A DNA stretch of 64,000 nucleotides from an uncultured bacterium (GTDB lineage: Bacteria > Desulfobacterota > Binatia > HRBIN30 > CADEER01). Position 1 is the first letter of the stretch. Each line of letters starts with the position of its first letter. The translations under genes and the position numbers were made by a program. This document shows positions 10,741 through 20,524 of the stretch, in pieces. Location of the stretch: the NCBI GenBank assembly GCA_902826395.1, contig CADEER010000016.1, forward strand, positions 1-64,000, in the 5' to 3' direction. Below the pieces are notes generated by a model. That model did no database searches and was not told the origin of the DNA. It worked only from the letters and a program-made list of their open reading frames with translations.

Positions 10741-11946
10741 TCATGCCTCGAGCTCGGCGAGCGTCTGCGCGAATCGGCCTTCATAAAAGCTCGCCGCGGC
10801 GCGGGCCGTCGCCCACAACTTGTCCTGGCGCGGGAAGTCGCGAAAGGACGCGCGAAACGCGTCGGTGATCGCCGCCCACGCTTGCTCGTACGGCGGTGCG
10901 AGTGGCGGCAGCATCGCCTCGCGAGACGGCAACCGCGGAAACGCCGCATGAGGCTCGCTCTGGTACCAGTAGGCGACCGAGCTGTAGTCGTTGGCGAAAT
11001 TGTTGGCGTGGCCGTGCTCGATCGTCCAGCGCAACGAGCGCGCGAAGCGAATCGGATCGTGCACGAACCAGCGGTAGGCGCCGACCAGGCCGGAGTAGTC
11101 TTCCGACTCGACCAGATGAAAGCCGTGCATGATGCCGCTGTACTCGCTCGAAGGGCAGGCGCCGCCGCCGAAGATCTCTTCGCTGCCGGTGCCGTGCATC
11201 GACGGCGGCCATGTGTCGCCGTCGATGAAAACCATGTCGTCGCCTTCGCCGTACCAACCGCCGGCGCGATTGTCGATTTCGAGCACGAGCCCGACCATCT
11301 GACCGCATCCAGCAGCTTCCAGCGCGACGTAGTTCTCGGCGCCGCCGAGGTTTACCGCTTCGTGCAACTGCACGTTCGGCTGATCGCCGACCGCCGTGGT
11401 CGGTCGCTCCTGGCGCCACTGCGCGTGGAAGCGGAGCGTGTCGGCAGGAGGCGCGTCATCGAACGTCGCGTAGTCGATGTGATACCAGAACGCCGGCAGC
11501 AGGCCGCCGAGGAGGCGATCGCCGCGATGTTCGAGGGTGACGCGTGCGCCCTCCGCGAACGGCATCGGGAAGTAGGCGTTGAGACCGTGCGAGGCCCCGA
11601 AGCCGGGATTGACCGACACGAAGTGGCTGCGCACCAAACGAGTCCGCGCGTGCGCGAGAGTGAAGAAATCGCCAAGTGGTACTTCGACGGACGGCGTCTC
11701 CTCGCCGTCCCAGTAGCAGCGCAAGATGGCGTCGCGGTAGTCGGTGATCTGCGGGAACACCAATCCGCAGTAGATGTGCTCGATACAGCCCGGCCCGTCG
11801 TGCTCCAGCAGAGTGGCCGTCTCGCCTGCAGCGATCACCAGGTAGTCGCGGTTGCCGCCGCTGCGGTCCCAGGACGAGGCGCGTCGACTGCGGCCCCGAG
11901 GCGTCGTGAAGAGATTGCGCAGAGGATGGTTAGAGAGCGGGTGCAC
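10741..11946 (-). CDS. DUF2961 / GH172-family glycoside hydrolase
   Basis: 401-residue protein with the DUF2961 signature: IEHIYCGLVFP, ILRCYWDGEETPSVEVPLGDFF, FWYHIDYATF, GWYGEGDDMVFIDGD and HGTGSEEIFGGGACP. DUF2961 proteins founded family GH172, known for alpha-D-fructofuranose and D-arabinofuranose linkages. The specificity here is not readable from sequence. No clear signal peptide is present, although the N-terminus is unusually basic. It lies 47 bases downstream of the GH39-like glycosidase gene on the same strand and is probably co-transcribed with it. The 158 bases between this gene and the adaptor start at 10582 hold nothing that I recognise. Confidence 0.85.
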   Translation of the reverse strand: MHPLSNHPLRNLFTTPRGRSRRASSWDRSGGNRDYLVIAAGETATLLEHDGPGCIEHIYCGLVFPQITDYRDAILRCYWDGEETPSVEVPLGDFFTLAHARTRLVRSHFVSVNPGFGASHGLNAYFPMPFAEGARVTLEHRGDRLLGGLLPAFWYHIDYATFDDAPPADTLRFHAQWRQERPTTAVGDQPNVQLHEAVNLGGAENYVALEAAGCGQMVGLVLEIDNRAGGWYGEGDDMVFIDGDTWPPSMHGTGSEEIFGGGACPSSEYSGIMHGFHLVESEDYSGLVGAYRWFVHDPIRFARSLRWTIEHGHANNFANDYSSVAYWYQSEPHAAFPRLPSREAMLPPLAPPYEQAWAAITDAFRASFRDFPRQDKLWATARAAASFYEGRFAQTLAELEA

Positions 11947-11993: not shown

Positions 11994-14231
11994 TCAGGGG
12001 CACCGCATACTCGCGCCGTTGGCGCTCGTGCGGCAAGCAGCGAAAGCCGTCGCGCCGCACTGGCCCGGCGCCGCGGTGGGAGCGCCGAAGACGACGCGCG
12101 CAATCAGCGGTGCGCCCGCGGGTGCCGAGCCGAGTGCGAGCCCGGCGGCCTTGACGCTCAGGCGCAGAGTGCCGGCCGGCTTCACCTCCCGCACCGTCGC
12201 CTTGGTGATGCCGTTCGGCGCCAGAGAGTTGCGATACTTCCACGTCGTGCCGGCGCCGTTCATCGACCAGCCCGACCCGGCGGGTGCAGTGAGGTCGGCG
12301 AGGACGACGCCGGTGTCGCTGGTGAGGATGACCCGCAGGCCATCGGCCCGTGGATCGATGGGCGGGCTGAGCGGCGTCGTGACGGTGCCGCGCAGCTTGA
12401 GCTGATCATCGCCCGAAGGGGCTTGCAGCTTGCGCAGTTGGAGGCGCGCGTCGGCGACGACCGACGGACTGCTGCAGCCACCAGTGTCGGTGCCGCGCTC
12501 GATCTCGAGCAGCATCACCGCATACGGCGGGAGGTCGATGTCCGTAATCTGCGAGAGGTCGGAAACCAACTGCGTGTCGAGCTGCTGCAATTCTTCTGCT
12601 GCTATGGCGGCGTTCAATCCCGACGCGACGAACGCGGCGTAGCTGTTGTTGTGTGTCGAGTCGATGAGCCAGCGCTTCACCTCGTAACCGCCGGGCGAGG
12701 CGAAGCCGTCGATCGCCAGCGATATGTCGCTCGTCTGCGTGACCAGGGCGCGCTGCCGGTAGAACACGTCCTTCATGCGTTCGAGATCGACCTGTTCCGA
12801 GGGAACAGAGGTCAGCGTACCGACCGGGATGGCGTTCGCCAGGAACGCGGCGATGAGCGTCTGCCCGCCCCACCGTGTGAAGTCGGCAGGGTCGTAGCCC
12901 ATGTCGCGCAGCACCTCGACAGCCTGGCGACCAGGGCTGGTCACATAGCTCCACATCAACAGCCCGAGGCGGTCATCCTCGACGCCGGCGATGGCCCACA
13001 CGTGCGGAAAGTACTCGTCGGCGTCGTCGGCGTGGGTCATGTCGACCGATACGAGCTCGCGCGGCATGCGGCCGACGATGGTCTGCGCGTGATAGATGGC
13101 CTTGCGCAGTCCGTTCTTGTTCTTGTTGGTGCGCAGTCCCCAATCGTGCGGGAACTCCAGGCTGCCGCCCCAATCGGCGTCGTCGAGTTGGTACATCGCC
13201 TGGTAGCCGGACGCTCCGCCCTCGGCGAGGTGCGCCATGAAGGCGAGTGAATAGCTGGCGCCCATCTCGTTGTCGGTCTGCCAGCAGCCGAGCGGCGACG
13301 GCGGCGACGGCCAGCTCGGATCGTCGCGCTGTTCGTTGGGTTCGAAGCAGGCACTGAGCGGATTCCAACTGCCGACGATAATCGGAAGAGGCGGGAAGCC
13401 GTTGGCGGTCAACAGGTCGAGCACCTGCCGATTGGCGCGCCGGTTCTGTTCGGGGGGTGTGCCGAACAGATGGTAGGTGATGAAGTCGGGCTGTATACCC
13501 TGAGCCGCCGAGTACTCGATGAAGGCTTGCATGACCGGGACGGACTCGCCGGGCTTGATGCTTTCCGGGCCGCCGACGGGCTCGGGTCCGCCAACCCGTG
13601 CCGTGGGATCGGCACTGCGTGCACCGGTCACGAAGTGTTCCCAGGTTTCGAGGAACTTGGCTTGCGTGTCGGTCCAGAAGCACGGGGCGTCGGGCTCTTC
13701 CCAGAACTGGTACCAGACGTTGTCGAGATTGTGAGTGACGTTGAAGTAGGTCACCGTCGCCGCTATCGCCGCCTCCCAGTCCGCCCACTTGGTCGGGTCG
13801 GGAGCGACGGTCTGGTACTTCGGCCACTCGTCGGCGCATCCCGGCGGCGTGGATGTGACGGAAGACGAAGAGATCCACCGCGGCATACCGTGTATCTGGA
13901 GCAGGAATTGCGCGCCTTGCTGTGCCGCCAGCGCCGCGACGGTGGCGAGGCCGCTCGCCGCGAGGCGTGCCTGGTAGTTGGCGAGGCTGGTCGACGGTCC
14001 TAGGTGCAGGTGCGTCGACTCGACGACGATCCCATTGGAGCGACCGGCGTCGACCGCGAAGTCCAGCTTCATCTGCGTGCTGGTCCAGCCGAAGAAAGCC
14101 GAGGGCTCGAAGAAAGTGGGCAGGGTGCCGGCAGCCGTGTCGCCGTGCACGGCGATGGCGATCTGTTCGGCATGCGCGGGCGCAATCGAGGCGACAGCGA
14201 GGAGAAGGATAGGAATGCAGCGGCTGACCAT
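11994..14231 (-). CDS. Secreted GH39-like glycosidase with C-terminal shared beta-domain
   Basis: 745 residues from MVSRCIPILL, chosen because it has a clear signal peptide (to PAHA) and GGAGG just upstream. The frame is open for 195 more codons, but these do not look coding. The catalytic part resembles GH39/clan-A barrels: YQFWEEPDAPCFW fits the acid/base region of beta-xylosidases, followed by DFITYHLFG and further barrel strands. Assignment to GH39 is by pattern, not search. Residues about 597-745 form a separate domain with GTTWKYRN and LAPNGITKATVREVK, closely matching the neighbouring divergent secreted protein. It is likely exported and acts on a glycan. Confidence 0.72.
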   Translation of the reverse strand: MVSRCIPILLLAVASIAPAHAEQIAIAVHGDTAAGTLPTFFEPSAFFGWTSTQMKLDFAVDAGRSNGIVVESTHLHLGPSTSLANYQARLAASGLATVAALAAQQGAQFLLQIHGMPRWISSSSVTSTPPGCADEWPKYQTVAPDPTKWADWEAAIAATVTYFNVTHNLDNVWYQFWEEPDAPCFWTDTQAKFLETWEHFVTGARSADPTARVGGPEPVGGPESIKPGESVPVMQAFIEYSAAQGIQPDFITYHLFGTPPEQNRRANRQVLDLLTANGFPPLPIIVGSWNPLSACFEPNEQRDDPSWPSPPSPLGCWQTDNEMGASYSLAFMAHLAEGGASGYQAMYQLDDADWGGSLEFPHDWGLRTNKNKNGLRKAIYHAQTIVGRMPRELVSVDMTHADDADEYFPHVWAIAGVEDDRLGLLMWSYVTSPGRQAVEVLRDMGYDPADFTRWGGQTLIAAFLANAIPVGTLTSVPSEQVDLERMKDVFYRQRALVTQTSDISLAIDGFASPGGYEVKRWLIDSTHNNSYAAFVASGLNAAIAAEELQQLDTQLVSDLSQITDIDLPPYAVMLLEIERGTDTGGCSSPSVVADARLQLRKLQAPSGDDQLKLRGTVTTPLSPPIDPRADGLRVILTSDTGVVLADLTAPAGSGWSMNGAGTTWKYRNSLAPNGITKATVREVKPAGTLRLSVKAAGLALGSAPAGAPLIARVVFGAPTAAPGQCGATAFAACRTSANGASMRCP

Positions 14232-14523
14232 CGGGCCTCCAATGTCTGCGCGACGAGGAGCGCGAACGTTGGGATGATCGGTGAAGTCGCGGCGGCTGGT
14301 CAAGCACTGTTTTGCTATGCCGGACGTGTCGCCGGCGTAGCGCCCAATTCTGAATTGCCGCCTTCCCGACGAGGGTGCAGTTAGAGGTGGACCTTTGGCG
14401 CTGGTTGGATCAGAGTGCGCGCGGGCACAATGGGAGGGGCAGTTGGGGGAACGGAACGCGACGAGGCTCGCGTTTCGGAATGCGGCGCGATTCGCGGTGC
14501 TATCGAGATAAGGGGGGACAGAA
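14232..14523. other. Divergent intergenic region between two secreted-protein genes
   Basis: 292 bases hold the 5' regions of the GH39-like gene (minus) and the Cys-rich secreted protein (plus). A GGAGG site serves the minus gene and an AAGGGGGG site serves the plus gene. On the minus strand a TTGACC hexamer with a weak CGATCA at 17 bases could be a promoter. No open frame or repeat here looks genuine. Confidence 0.5.
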
Positions 14524-15387
14524 ATGAAATCAGCTACGGCGATGGGTCGGACCTTGGCGTTGGCGATGTGCTGGTTGGTGGCTGTCGGCACCAATGCCCT
14601 TGGCGCTGACGTCCCGACTACTGGAAAGAAACTACTGCTCAAGGACAACCCGAAGTTCGTTCTTCTTTCGAAAGACACGGGAATCCTCGCACCCGGCTCG
14701 ATCTGCAATCTAATGCCTCCCGATGTGCAGGTCGCTACCCTGACGTTTGACGACGGCACGAACAAGCACGTGTTCAACCTGCCGTGTGAGAATTGGAAGT
14801 CGAACTCGTCGGGCACGACCTGGACCTACAAGAACAAACTGGCGCCGGCCGGTCCGTCCGAAGTGAAAGTCGTCAAACTGAAGGACGGGCTACTCAAAGT
14901 CGTTGGGAAGGGTCTCGGAAGCATCCCGATTCCGAGCGCGATGGAGACGATCGATGTGACATTCGCCGTCCGTGGGCTCACGCAGCGCTACTGCATGTCG
15001 TTCGAAGGCACGGGCGACGGCAGCAAGTTCTCGGTCAAGGATGCACCGGCTGGTGCCTGTGCTCCGCCCGAGTGCCAGGCGAATACGGGAGGCTTCTGTT
15101 GGTTCCTCGCCGACTACGGACAGAGCTGCAACGTACTCTGCCCAGAGGCGGGCCTGGCATACGACAGCGCGACCGCGAGTTTCGCCGGCGATGCCGGGTC
15201 GGACGCCAACTGCCTGTCGGTCCTGAGCGACCTCGGTGTGGCCGCGGGTACTGTCTCGGCCGAGACCTGCTCCGCTGGCGCGGGTTGTATAGCTCGACCC
15301 GGGCCGGCGACGCCGGTGCGCTGCACTTCCCCCGCGACGACGGCGTCCGCGGCTGATCCCGGCTTCCGCGCCTGCGCGTGTCAGTAA
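14524..15387 (+). CDS. Secreted Cys-rich protein with shared beta-domain
   Basis: 287 residues of unknown function. A signal peptide ends near ALGA (residue 28) and a strong AAGGGGGG ribosome site precedes the start. Residues about 35-180 (KKLLLKDNP to DAPAGAC) match the C-terminal domain of the divergent GH39-like protein: GTTWTYKNKLAPAG, KVVKLKDGLLKVVGKG. The tail (about 180-287) is Cys-rich: CWFLADYGQSCNVLCPEAG, DANCLSVLSDLGV, GCIAR, FRACACQ. This looks like an extracellular disulfide-bonded module found in secreted proteins of related lineages. It is probably a surface or matrix protein, with no enzymatic motif seen. A strong hairpin follows. Confidence 0.72.
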   Translation: MKSATAMGRTLALAMCWLVAVGTNALGADVPTTGKKLLLKDNPKFVLLSKDTGILAPGSICNLMPPDVQVATLTFDDGTNKHVFNLPCENWKSNSSGTTWTYKNKLAPAGPSEVKVVKLKDGLLKVVGKGLGSIPIPSAMETIDVTFAVRGLTQRYCMSFEGTGDGSKFSVKDAPAGACAPPECQANTGGFCWFLADYGQSCNVLCPEAGLAYDSATASFAGDAGSDANCLSVLSDLGVAAGTVSAETCSAGAGCIARPGPATPVRCTSPATTASAADPGFRACACQ

Positions 15388-16643: not shown

Positions 16644-18332
16644 TCAAGATCGGCGCGCCGCGCGCAGAGCCGCGTCGAGCTCGTGGATCACCGTCAAACG
16701 CTCCTCGGCCGTTACTTTGAGCGCGTTGATCAGGTCCAATCGCTCCTCGGCGATCGCCGATAGAGCGTGAATGCCTTTCAGCCGTTCCTCAGCGGCGGCT
16801 GTGAGAACGCGGATCATTTCCAATCGCTCATCGGCGGTGGCCTGTAGAGCGCGAAGCGCTTCGAAGCGTTCATTCGCAACTCGGGTGAGAGTGATCACCC
16901 CTTGAAGGCGGGCGTCCGCTTGCTCGTTGCTATCGCGAAGCGATGCGCCCAAGGCGGCGAGGTGGCGGTGAATCGAGGCCAGCAACTCGGTCCATGCGGG
17001 CCATGACCCCGTATCCGAACTTTTGGCCTCGCTCCCGGGCTTTGCCGGGCCGTCCTGGATCATCTCGAAGAGGAAGTCGTACGCCCGAGACCCGGCTTCA
17101 ATCAGGTTGCGCGCCTGCCGCAGTCGGGCGGCGCGTTGCGCGGGCGCTTCCTCCCACGCGCGTCGCACGGCGCTCGCCAGGAGCTCGGATAGTCCGGCAT
17201 CCTCCAGATCGAGCGGGGACCCGGCGTCGAAGAGGTCGAGCAACCCTGCCATCTTCAAGCGGTAGTGCGTCGACCGCGCCAGGGCGACAACCGGGATCCC
17301 CTGTGCCAGTGCGAACACCGCAGCGTGGTAGCTCCCGGTCACGACCACGCGACAGCGGCATAATGACGCGAAGAGCGCATCGAGAGTGTTCCTCGAATCG
17401 TTGCGCGCAGTTGGTAGCAGTGCGGCAATGGCGTCGGAATCGGACGGCTCGTATAGCGAAATCGGGAGCGACACCAGCTCCGCGCCAAGCGCGGCGGATG
17501 CGATCTGCAATCCGCTCCGGAGCTTCTCGACGATCGCGTGATCCGTCTCGACGGCGATCCCCGCATAGGCGGCGCTTCGGATGTTCACACCGATCGCGTT
17601 GCCGAGATCGGCTTGCAGCGCCAGGTGCGCGATCTCGAGTCCGTCGTCGCCGGTGATGTGAATCGAGTCAGCCGAGACGCCGTAGCTCCGCAACACGGCG
17701 GGTGAAGTCCGACCCTCGCGGCAACCGATCAAATCGAGTCGCGGGAGGATGTCAGCGGCGACGGCGCGGAGGAGCGGATCCTCGACCGGCTCGAAGCCGC
17801 ATCCGACGATGGCCGCCGACTTGCCGGCGCGAACCGCCTCGCCGAGCGTTTGGAGCACGCCCGCGGCGTGGTCGGCGAACGCCTCACTGAAGTACCCGCC
17901 GCCCATTGCTATGACCGCGTCGGATGCCTGGATCGCGCGCAACCATTCGAGCCGCGTCGCTGCGGCTCTCTGCCGGCCAGCGCTCTCCAGCGCGCGCGAC
18001 ATCGCGGCCGGATCGCGCCGCCACTCTTCGTCCTCCAAAAGGACGAGCGAGGCGAGGCTGCTGCGGTTCTCCGGGGCGGATAGCAGACGCAAGAGCGACC
18101 ACTCGCGGCGGTCACCGACCACCAGGGGCTGTGCACCGGGGATGAGGGCAGATACCCCGTCCGGGTCGCTGGTGATCACTCGCAATGCTGCGTTCGGATA
18201 TCGGCCGAGGATACGGCGCGAAAGCGTCTGCAGCATCGCGATGTCGCCGAGATTGTTCAGCCGGTACGTGCTGCACTCGATCAGCACGGAGCGGATTTCC
18301 GCCGGCGTTCGCGGAGATTGGATTGAGATCAT
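16644..18332 (-). CDS. Polysaccharide pyruvyl transferase-like protein with five 14-residue C-terminal repeats
   Basis: About 562 residues from MISIQSPRTP; MRRRTAATRL at 18368 is an alternative start. The open frame continues upstream into the tRNA-Gly terminator and gene, which argues against a longer protein. The body (about 15-450) has the pyruvyl-transferase/CsaB-type fold signals: STYRLNNLGDIAMLQ, VIAMGGGYFSEAF, LIGCREGRTSPAVLRSYGV, VVVTGSYHAAVFALAQGIPVVAL. These enzymes add pyruvate ketals to cell-surface glycans. Residues about 486-555 are five back-to-back 14-residue units of the form AEERLxxIxxLxxx, forecast to make a coiled coil. The domain call rests on motif reading. Confidence 0.78.
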   Translation of the reverse strand: MISIQSPRTPAEIRSVLIECSTYRLNNLGDIAMLQTLSRRILGRYPNAALRVITSDPDGVSALIPGAQPLVVGDRREWSLLRLLSAPENRSSLASLVLLEDEEWRRDPAAMSRALESAGRQRAAATRLEWLRAIQASDAVIAMGGGYFSEAFADHAAGVLQTLGEAVRAGKSAAIVGCGFEPVEDPLLRAVAADILPRLDLIGCREGRTSPAVLRSYGVSADSIHITGDDGLEIAHLALQADLGNAIGVNIRSAAYAGIAVETDHAIVEKLRSGLQIASAALGAELVSLPISLYEPSDSDAIAALLPTARNDSRNTLDALFASLCRCRVVVTGSYHAAVFALAQGIPVVALARSTHYRLKMAGLLDLFDAGSPLDLEDAGLSELLASAVRRAWEEAPAQRAARLRQARNLIEAGSRAYDFLFEMIQDGPAKPGSEAKSSDTGSWPAWTELLASIHRHLAALGASLRDSNEQADARLQGVITLTRVANERFEALRALQATADERLEMIRVLTAAAEERLKGIHALSAIAEERLDLINALKVTAEERLTVIHELDAALRAARRS

Positions 18333-18453
18333 CTGCTTCAGTCGCGTGGCGGCAGTTCGCCTGCGCATGCGGTCGGCGTCGATATCACGCGACGTCCAAC
18401 CGGGATAGAGCTTGGCGTCTCTGTGTCGGCCTGTGCGCCACAGGGGGAAAAGA

Positions 18454-18482
18454 CGAAAGCCCCTGTGGCACAGGGGCTTTCG
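18454..18482 (-). terminator. Terminator of tRNA-Gly
   Basis: A perfect 14-base inverted repeat (CGAAAGCCCCTGTG / CACAGGGGCTTTCG) sits 4 bases after the tRNA 3' end on the minus strand and is followed there by TCTTTT. It is a strong intrinsic terminator separating the tRNA from the pyruvyl-transferase-like gene downstream. Confidence 0.85.
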
Positions 18483-18486
18483 TGAG

Positions 18487-18558
<72 letters not shown>

Positions 18559-18595: not shown

Positions 18596-20524
18596 TCAAT
18601 TTTCAATGTCGTCGGCATTCGCGACGGTGGTGCGCTGTACCGCGATCAACGCGACCTGGTTGTTCTGCTTTGGCGCCCATAAGCCCGGGAGAACCTCGAG
18701 GCCATCGCGTCTCGCCGGCGTGAGCCGGCGCCACTCGTCGAGCGTCATGATCGCGATCGCTCCCGGTGGCAGGGCGGAAACGGATTCGAGTACCGGCAGC
18801 GCGCCGCCGAGATGGAATGCGACCGCGGCGTCGAAGCTCGGCGTTGTTGCCAACGATCGCGCGGCGGCGACCGCGCTCAAGCGCGCTGCGTAGTCCGCGC
18901 GGTCGTTCGCCGGTGTCACCGCCGGCATTATGGCGTGCTGGACGAGGAGAAGCAGCGCTACGACGCTGGCGAGCAACGCCGCGACCGTGCCTCGCGCATG
19001 CCGATAGAGAGAACAATAGAGGAGCGCCAAAGCGGCGGCGCAGGTCGCGGCGGCATATGTGCAGAGGCGAAGCGTCCAGATGTCGAAGCCGGCCGAGATC
19101 GCTGCCGCGACCGAGTTTGCAGCGGCGCGAGCAACGATCGGATCGACGATCGCTCGTCGCAGTGGGAGGCCGGCGAGCTCCAGCGCGAAGGCTACCGCGA
19201 TCGCGCCGGTGAGCAGTGCCACGCCGATGGCAAGCACGGATGTCAGCCGGTACAGCCAGCGCGGCGCTGAGCGGCGCTGCCACAGGTCGGCGAGCCACAG
19301 GCCGACCAGCGTCGTCGCCGCCGGATAAAGCGGTAGGAGATAGACGCTGCGCTTGCTGTCGGAGATGCTGAAGAAGCCGAAGACGACGGCGATCCAGACC
19401 AGCGAGTGCGCGGCGAGGGTGCGCACTGCTCCTCTGCCGCCGGACGCGATGGCAACGGCGTGAGCCGCATAGCCGGGGAGGAACAGGGTCCACGGCAGGA
19501 AGCCCGCGGCCAGCGCGCCGAATAGATAGCCCAGGCCGTGCCGGTGACCGACATCGATCTGCGCCGTACCGAAGAACCGACCGAAGTTCTCGGCGAGGAT
19601 CTGCGTGCGGACGAACTCTTCGCCGCCGGCCCGCGCTGCCATCCCGTACCACAGGGCGGTCAGGACGCCCACGCAAGCGAAGCCGAGGAACGGCCGCAGC
19701 GGTCGAACGGCGGTCCACGCAACGTAGAGGAAAACAACCGCGAAGGTGACGCCGGCAAGCGCTGCGACGGCCTCCGTCGGCGCGCCCAGTTGATGAGCGA
19801 TCAGCGCCAGTGCGGCGATGCCGCCGAGCGGCAGCACCCAACGCGTGCCACTATCGATGAGCAGCACGACGATCGCGCACAGCGTCGGGAGCACGATGCC
19901 GATGGGGCCCTTGGCCAGCGTGCCCCAGGCCATGCCGCCGTACAGGAGAAACAGAGCAACCGGCCGCGGGCGGAGCACGGCCAGATACAGACCGGCAAAC
20001 GACGCAGTCGTGCCGAGTGCCAGGGTCATGTCGATGCGGGCGCTGACCGCGGCCCGCATCCACTCGAAGCTGGTGAGAAGTGCGAGCGCTGAGAAGAGGC
20101 CGGCGAGGGGTGTGCCGGCGCCAACGCCGACGACGAGCAGCAACAAGGCTGCAACACCCGACTGCACGGCTGACGGCATGCGTACGCTCTGCTCGTCGAC
20201 CTGGCCGGTCGCGGCTGCCGCGGCGCCGCCCAACCAGTAGAAGAGCGGCGGCTTGCGCGGCATCTCGTAGCCGTTGCGCAGCGGCAAGATGTATCGATCG
20301 CTGTGGACGAGGTCCTGAACCGCGATCGCCTCGCGCGGCTCTCCCTTGCTGTGAAAAGGGATCTCGTCGAGGCCGCGGAGCTGCAATACGGCCCAGACCG
20401 CGAACAGGACGAGTGCCAGCGGCAGGATCAGCAGGCGTTGCGGATCGGCAGACTGGCGCGGAGGCGACGTAGCTTGATCCTCGACTGCCACCGGCACGCT
20501 TTCACTCGGAACGTCTGACGCCAT
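18596..20524 (-). CDS. ArnT-like GT39/GT83-family membrane glycosyltransferase
   Basis: 642-residue polytopic inner-membrane enzyme. After a cytoplasmic N-terminus of about 28 residues come about a dozen hydrophobic segments. The first periplasmic loop has IPFHSKGEPREAIAVQDLV and the basic stretch GYEMPRKPPLFYWLGG, matching the catalytic acidic residue and the 'KPPLxYW' signature of ArnT and related transferases. These use a polyprenyl-phosphate sugar to decorate lipid A, glycans or proteins. The acceptor is unknown here. The gene is a single unit upstream of tRNA-Gly and diverges from the PcRGLX-like gene. Confidence 0.87.
   Translation of the reverse strand: MASDVPSESVPVAVEDQATSPPRQSADPQRLLILPLALVLFAVWAVLQLRGLDEIPFHSKGEPREAIAVQDLVHSDRYILPLRNGYEMPRKPPLFYWLGGAAAAATGQVDEQSVRMPSAVQSGVAALLLLVVGVGAGTPLAGLFSALALLTSFEWMRAAVSARIDMTLALGTTASFAGLYLAVLRPRPVALFLLYGGMAWGTLAKGPIGIVLPTLCAIVVLLIDSGTRWVLPLGGIAALALIAHQLGAPTEAVAALAGVTFAVVFLYVAWTAVRPLRPFLGFACVGVLTALWYGMAARAGGEEFVRTQILAENFGRFFGTAQIDVGHRHGLGYLFGALAAGFLPWTLFLPGYAAHAVAIASGGRGAVRTLAAHSLVWIAVVFGFFSISDSKRSVYLLPLYPAATTLVGLWLADLWQRRSAPRWLYRLTSVLAIGVALLTGAIAVAFALELAGLPLRRAIVDPIVARAAANSVAAAISAGFDIWTLRLCTYAAATCAAALALLYCSLYRHARGTVAALLASVVALLLLVQHAIMPAVTPANDRADYAARLSAVAAARSLATTPSFDAAVAFHLGGALPVLESVSALPPGAIAIMTLDEWRRLTPARRDGLEVLPGLWAPKQNNQVALIAVQRTTVANADDIEN

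Follow-up and report, generated by a model that had tools for sequence, protein, structure and literature searches.

The closest described counterparts of the domain reported here are terminal modules that attach exported proteins to the cell envelope. The GW modules of Listeria InlB, Ami and IspC, which are shorter SH3-like repeats, are small terminal modules with a non-covalent hold on the envelope. The T9SS CTDs of Bacteroidota are beta-sandwiches that end dozens of unrelated exported proteins, with surface display as their feature. Both T9SS CTDs (PMC8545088, PMC9143113) and GW modules (PMC10714868) are terminal envelope-attachment tags. Two further points of comparison are beta-sandwich CBMs (e.g. 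CBM9), appended to glycosidase-like proteins, and the C-terminal beta domain of GH79 glycosidases (PF16862).

The domain that we describe, referred to below as the terminal domain, shares some features with each of these. It differs from T9SS CTDs in being found at the N-terminus as well and in belonging to another phylum, with no sequence or fold match to them (Pfam, NCBIfam, PDB) and no evidence of cleavage. It differs from GW modules in being a single predicted sandwich of ~150 residues from a Gram-negative-type lineage, and none of the 56 family members matched Pfam GW. The similarity to CBM9 is limited to a weak Foldseek match (1i82, E 0.09, TM 0.31), whereas the cargo is mostly non-CAZyme and the signature residue is lysine. 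PF16862 was matched weakly by one member only (E 0.0065–0.0074; 17.6 bits against a cut-off of 27). Judged by sequence and fold, the terminal domain belongs neither to T9SS CTDs nor to GW modules, which it would resemble functionally.

The window (the whole stretch of DNA analysed, 64,000 nucleotides) contains two copies of the terminal domain in neighbouring, divergently transcribed genes (Table 1). The earlier note had proposed that one domain, marked by the motifs GTTWKYRNSLAPNG and GTTWTYKNKLAPAG, lies at 11994–12443 and 14626–15060. Both motifs are present in the translated copies, and the HMM envelopes agree with these positions. Copies A and B, aligned as a pair alone, have 36% identity over 69 residues (BLASTP, E 1e-9). 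When profiles were built from disjoint sets, one of relatives of the glycosidase copy only and the other of relatives of the other copy only, hhalign matched them with 96.7% probability (E 3.6e-10). The similarity is beyond chance by both methods, and one homologous domain of ~145–155 residues is common to the two proteins.

Table 1. Positions in the window of the two domain-bearing genes and their parts
Feature	Coordinates	Strand	Evidence and remarks
287-aa exported protein	14524..15387	+	ORF and translation; signal peptide MKSATAMGRTLALAMCWLVAVGTNALGA (heuristic); lysine-rich terminal domain; C-terminal Cys-rich domain
Copy A of terminal domain	14623..15060	+	HMM match; N-terminal placement, directly behind signal peptide; AF2 model
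Cys-rich C-terminal domain of 287-aa protein	15061..15384	+	Relatives at 38–49% identity in G000, G002, G003 and G004
745-aa exported GH39-like protein	11994..14231	-	Translation; ATG at 14231 is the best start; signal peptide MVSRCIPILLLAVASIAPAHA; terminal domain at C-terminus
Copy B of terminal domain	12003..12440	-	HMM match; C-terminal placement; 'GQCG..F' subfamily; AF2 model
GH39 nucleophile region of cargo, residues 287–290 'GSWN'	13362..13373	-	Alignment to PDB 2bs9 and loci L167 and L168
Divergent intergenic region between both genes, 292 bp	14232..14523	.	Sequence

In the mature form of the 287-aa protein, the terminal domain occupies the N-terminal half, and behind it lies a separate Cys-rich domain of ~105 residues, for which no match was found in Pfam or on plasmids. 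This unnamed Cys-rich domain, with a GGxCWF/Y motif and a CACE or CACQ end, also forms the C-terminal part of further exported proteins in the genus and family (L170, L171, L172 and L173) and is fused to the terminal domain in L073/L173 (contig C76). Near both genes lie a polysaccharide pyruvyl transferase and a PMT-type glycosyltransferase (16647–18536 and 18599–20524, respectively, both on the minus strand), enzymes that might take part in making an anionic polysaccharide of the surface.

The sharing of the domain by two neighbours is not a local relationship; the two copies are a few among many spread over the genome. A profile built from 56 members found 60 copies in this genome at E values up to 0.001, 58 of them at 2e-9 or better; a single search with the copy A domain alone had already found ten genome places. 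Pairs of copies no more than 5 kb apart occurred at chance frequency (4 seen versus 2.8 expected, P 0.32, for 60 copies in 6.09 Mb), and the adjacency of copies A and B therefore carries no information. In the tree, copy B falls in a clade of seven rows (SH-aLRT 99) and copy A lies near copies linked to M28 peptidases. Local duplication of one domain between the neighbours is ruled out by these distant clades together with the chance-level close pairs.

The family is also abundant in related genomes, with 6 to 72 copies in each of 13 other genomes reached via named records. The terminal domain was present in 54 of 145 genomes drawn from the class (Binatia-type MAGs), often at 26 or more places each, and was absent from all the listed genomes of two families (f5 and f11) in that draw. 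In a draw from the phylum, 6 of 247 genomes carried it and all six came from the same class; the restriction to one class refers to these two draws. The named records, which were scanned with one short motif, comprise 'Deltaproteobacteria' MAGs, 'Candidatus Binatia', UBP10/UBA1149 and UTPRO1, and one domain-bearing record is Myxococcota by its submitters' label alone. No viral contig carrying the domain was found. A literature search on Binatota and Binatia, limited in coverage, gave no description of such a domain.

Searches of Pfam, NCBIfam, PDB sequences, PDB folds and viral folds gave no match to a described family. Profile searches of Pfam, NCBIfam and PDB returned weak, scattered matches only, such as GH79C (E 0.0065) and DUF3551 (E 0.016), and NCBIfam XOO1806 (E 3.9e-4) was matched by just one of the 56 members; membership of a known family was rejected on this basis. 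The best fold matches were to generic immunoglobulin-like folds and were too weak to assign a fold from (E 0.012–0.02, query TM ≤0.37).

Fairly confident AlphaFold2 models were obtained for copy A (pLDDT 79.9, pTM 0.76, 30 sequences) and copy B (pLDDT 80.3, pTM 0.77, 23 sequences); the two predictions have alignment rows in common and so are not fully independent. Both models are almost all beta, with the same strand order around the invariant Trp and Cys. The corresponding strands (copy A/copy B) are 43–50/50–56, 55–61/61–67, 73–77/81–85, 87–94/93–101, 97–103/106–114, 117–123/127–133 and 129–134/142–148. Compared by this strand order, without superposition, the predicted folds of the two copies do not differ. 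The cysteines lend the fold support that does not depend on the models. In copy A, residues 88 and 102 are opposed on the predicted hairpin 87–94/97–103, and at this pair both cysteines are present in 20 of 95 copies, a single one in 1 and none in 74 (phi 0.97). Two other Cys pairs also covary (phi 0.95 and 1.0). The covarying pairs indicate disulfides and point to an oxidising compartment. The earlier description of a secreted beta-domain that has no family name and serves both as an appendage and as a nearly stand-alone domain is supported.

We noted that the position of the terminal domain within its proteins is strongly biased towards the ends. Among the 96 copies with E values up to 1e-5, the domain reaches to within 25 residues of the stop codon in 62 and follows immediately on a signal peptide in 28; four show both and were therefore counted as stand-alone. 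Just 10 are neither C-terminal nor behind a signal peptide, several of them in truncated contigs. By the same simple heuristic, a signal peptide was found in 84 of the 96 domain proteins compared with 23% of other ORFs. For 33 held-out copies, which were fetched later and lie outside the profile and the statistics, 24 were C-terminal, 5 N-terminal and 4 other, and 27 had a signal peptide. Placement switched at least nine times on the tree, fewer than with shuffled labels, and thus appears to be partly inherited and repeatedly switched. Stand-alone copies include L107 (201 aa) and L074 (214 aa).

Such a distribution is what a sorting or outer-membrane export signal, read by a dedicated lineage-specific machine and perhaps cleaved after export, might also produce. 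The occurrence at the termini of dozens of unrelated exported proteins, the ~60 copies per genome and the restriction to one class all fit this main rival explanation, and type IX CTDs offer a precedent (PMC8545088). However, the ~29% of copies that are N-terminal, directly behind the signal peptide, break the 'always C-terminal' rule of T9SS CTDs and, with the repeated switches of placement, argue against a C-terminal recognition signal. SprA_N was matched in none of the 145 class genomes, and the control genomes likewise gave no match. Overall we consider a sorting signal rather unlikely.

The proteins that carry the domain are diverse. Their cargo includes GH39-like proteins, lactonase-like propellers with heme motifs (CxxCH), parallel beta-helices (Beta_helix, NosD), M28 peptidases, phosphodiesterase/sulfatase and purple acid phosphatase domains, FG-GAP, GSDH, amidohydrolases and Cys-rich DUF4215 repeats. 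In 315 pairs of proteins with similar domains (domain E below 1e-10) the cargo had no detectable similarity; the cargo is exchangeable. The commonest cargo belongs to a recurrent exported protein of ~1100 aa with an N-terminal lactonase/YncE-like propeller, CxxCH heme motifs and the terminal domain at its end (L063, L067, L070, L083, L084, L088, L090, L133, L134 and others).

The terminal domain is most clearly set apart from its cargo by its lysine content. In summed sequences, lysine makes up 7.37% of the domain and 1.00% of its own cargo, and no other residue differs much beyond two-fold. Arginine (5.17 versus 4.75), GC3 (0.857 versus 0.841) and the share of AAG among Lys codons (85% and 87%) are equal in domain and cargo. 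Base composition is ruled out as the source of the lysines by the equal GC3 and codon use, and the contrast is therefore one of amino-acid selection. The domain exceeds its own cargo in lysine in 91 of 91 pairs, with a median pI of 9.1 versus 4.25. Among the held-out copies, lysine stands at 7.3% versus 0.65% in cargo and is higher in the domain in 27 of 29, but the median net charge is only +0.6 per 100 residues and some copies have a pI below 6. Lysine, more than net charge, is thus the constant, and a simple 'basic domain' explanation is weakened. Lysine is absent from two copies (L202). In these genomes the exported cargo (L063–L142) is itself strikingly lysine-poor (~1%) and acidic (median pI ~4.3), and part of the contrast may arise on the cargo side.

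Basic residues are concentrated at fixed columns: 94 (86%), 146 (82%), 99 (79%), and 75 and 77 (both 77%). Columns 75, 77, 94, 99, 103 and 146 are dominated by lysine, which outnumbers arginine ~3:1 at most of the conserved basic columns, whereas arginine outnumbers lysine ~5:1 in the cargo. This preference, which extends to copies without a net basic charge, could reflect covalent attachment, the selected lysines accepting a cross-link of isopeptide, transglutaminase-like or quinone type that would fix the protein into a matrix. Lysine may also be preferred for solubility or softer electrostatics, and we rate cross-linking as very improbable. The fixed lysine columns also bear on a passive folding or stability cap, a disulfide-bonded sandwich that needs no partner and shields the termini from exoproteases. 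Placement at either terminus and the paired cysteines suit such a cap, which leaves the lysine columns and the stand-alone copies unexplained; we regard it as very unlikely.

Columns 75 and 77 alternate with aromatics at 74 and 76 on one strand, suggesting that one face of the strand is aromatic and belongs to the core and that the other bears the lysines. This arrangement is relevant to whether the domain is a CBM in the CAZyme sense, which would bind a defined neutral glycan and target each enzyme to its substrate. The invariant Trp and two nearly invariant aromatics of the domain are consistent with a CBM, as is its attachment to a GH39-like protein beside a DUF2961 (GH172-type) gene. Conversely, the alternation with lysines suggests that the aromatics belong to the core, the cargo is for the most part not active on carbohydrates (peptidases, cytochrome-propellers, phosphatases), and neither a CBM family match nor a convincing CBM fold match was obtained. 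A CBM is thus improbable.

The GH39-like cargo protein itself matches Pfam Glyco_hydro_39 above the cut-off (E 3.9e-07) and the GH39 xylosidases of the PDB (E 1.5e-08), the match including the catalytic barrel. It keeps the acid/base Glu (WEEPD; W-x-E-P in the family), but at the nucleophile position it has Ser (GSWN) where homologues, including PDB 2bs9 and two from the class, have Glu (DEWN, TEWN, TEYN). Because of this replacement it is probably not a classical retaining glycosidase, so that the earlier label 'glycosidase' is doubtful; a pseudo-glycosidase or an altered enzyme is likely. A search of three further genomes of the genus gave no homologue of the protein. Directly downstream on the same strand, after a 47-bp gap, is the DUF2961 gene (10741–11946, minus strand; E 1.2e-71), whose product has no evident signal peptide; the two genes may form a small operon. 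GH172 was founded from the DUF2961 family (PMC8605356, PMC10115798).

The explanation that we favour, and to which we give about an even chance, is a terminal module for retention or display, whose lysine-studded sheet would anchor acidic proteins, once exported, on a polyanion of the cell surface or matrix. The domain-bearing proteins would cross the inner membrane by means of a Sec-type signal peptide, and the module would then fold into a disulfide-bonded beta-sandwich. Its lysine-studded sheet, formed in copy A model numbering by strand 73–77 (WTYKN) and hairpin 87–103, would face outwards and grip an anionic polymer of the surface or extracellular matrix, retaining the strongly acidic, lysine-poor cargo. 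Joined to the N- or C-terminus of a wide range of unrelated enzymes and structural proteins, one domain could in this way act as a general tag. The earlier note had suggested a carbohydrate- or surface-attachment module. Attachment to surface or matrix fits the terminal placement, the signal peptides, the diverse cargo and the selected lysines; carbohydrate binding as such is not borne out, given the lack of a CBM family match and a recurrent feature that is lysine rather than an aromatic platform. Against retention or display, net positive charge is not universal, as seen in the held-out copies and the Lys-free L202 copies, and placement beside either terminus would also fit some export or sorting signals.

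More tentatively, the retention module may be part of a lineage-specific, genome-wide protein-display system of Binatia-type bacteria, a proposal that we hold to be possible and somewhat doubtful. In such a system, the lysine-selected beta-sandwich would mark ~1% of genes for surface or matrix retention from either terminus, with a dedicated partner that could be a polyanion of the surface, machinery for sorting or an enzyme that forms cross-links. The lysine signature stands out in a secretome that is GC-rich and poor in lysine, and it offers a clue open to testing, of a kind that is rare among unnamed domain families. The terminal domain provides a way to learn how the bacteria of an uncultured class organise the proteins that they export: ~60 proteins in each genome could be recognised as the cargo of a single module, and the result of one binding or localisation experiment with a single domain would apply to them all.
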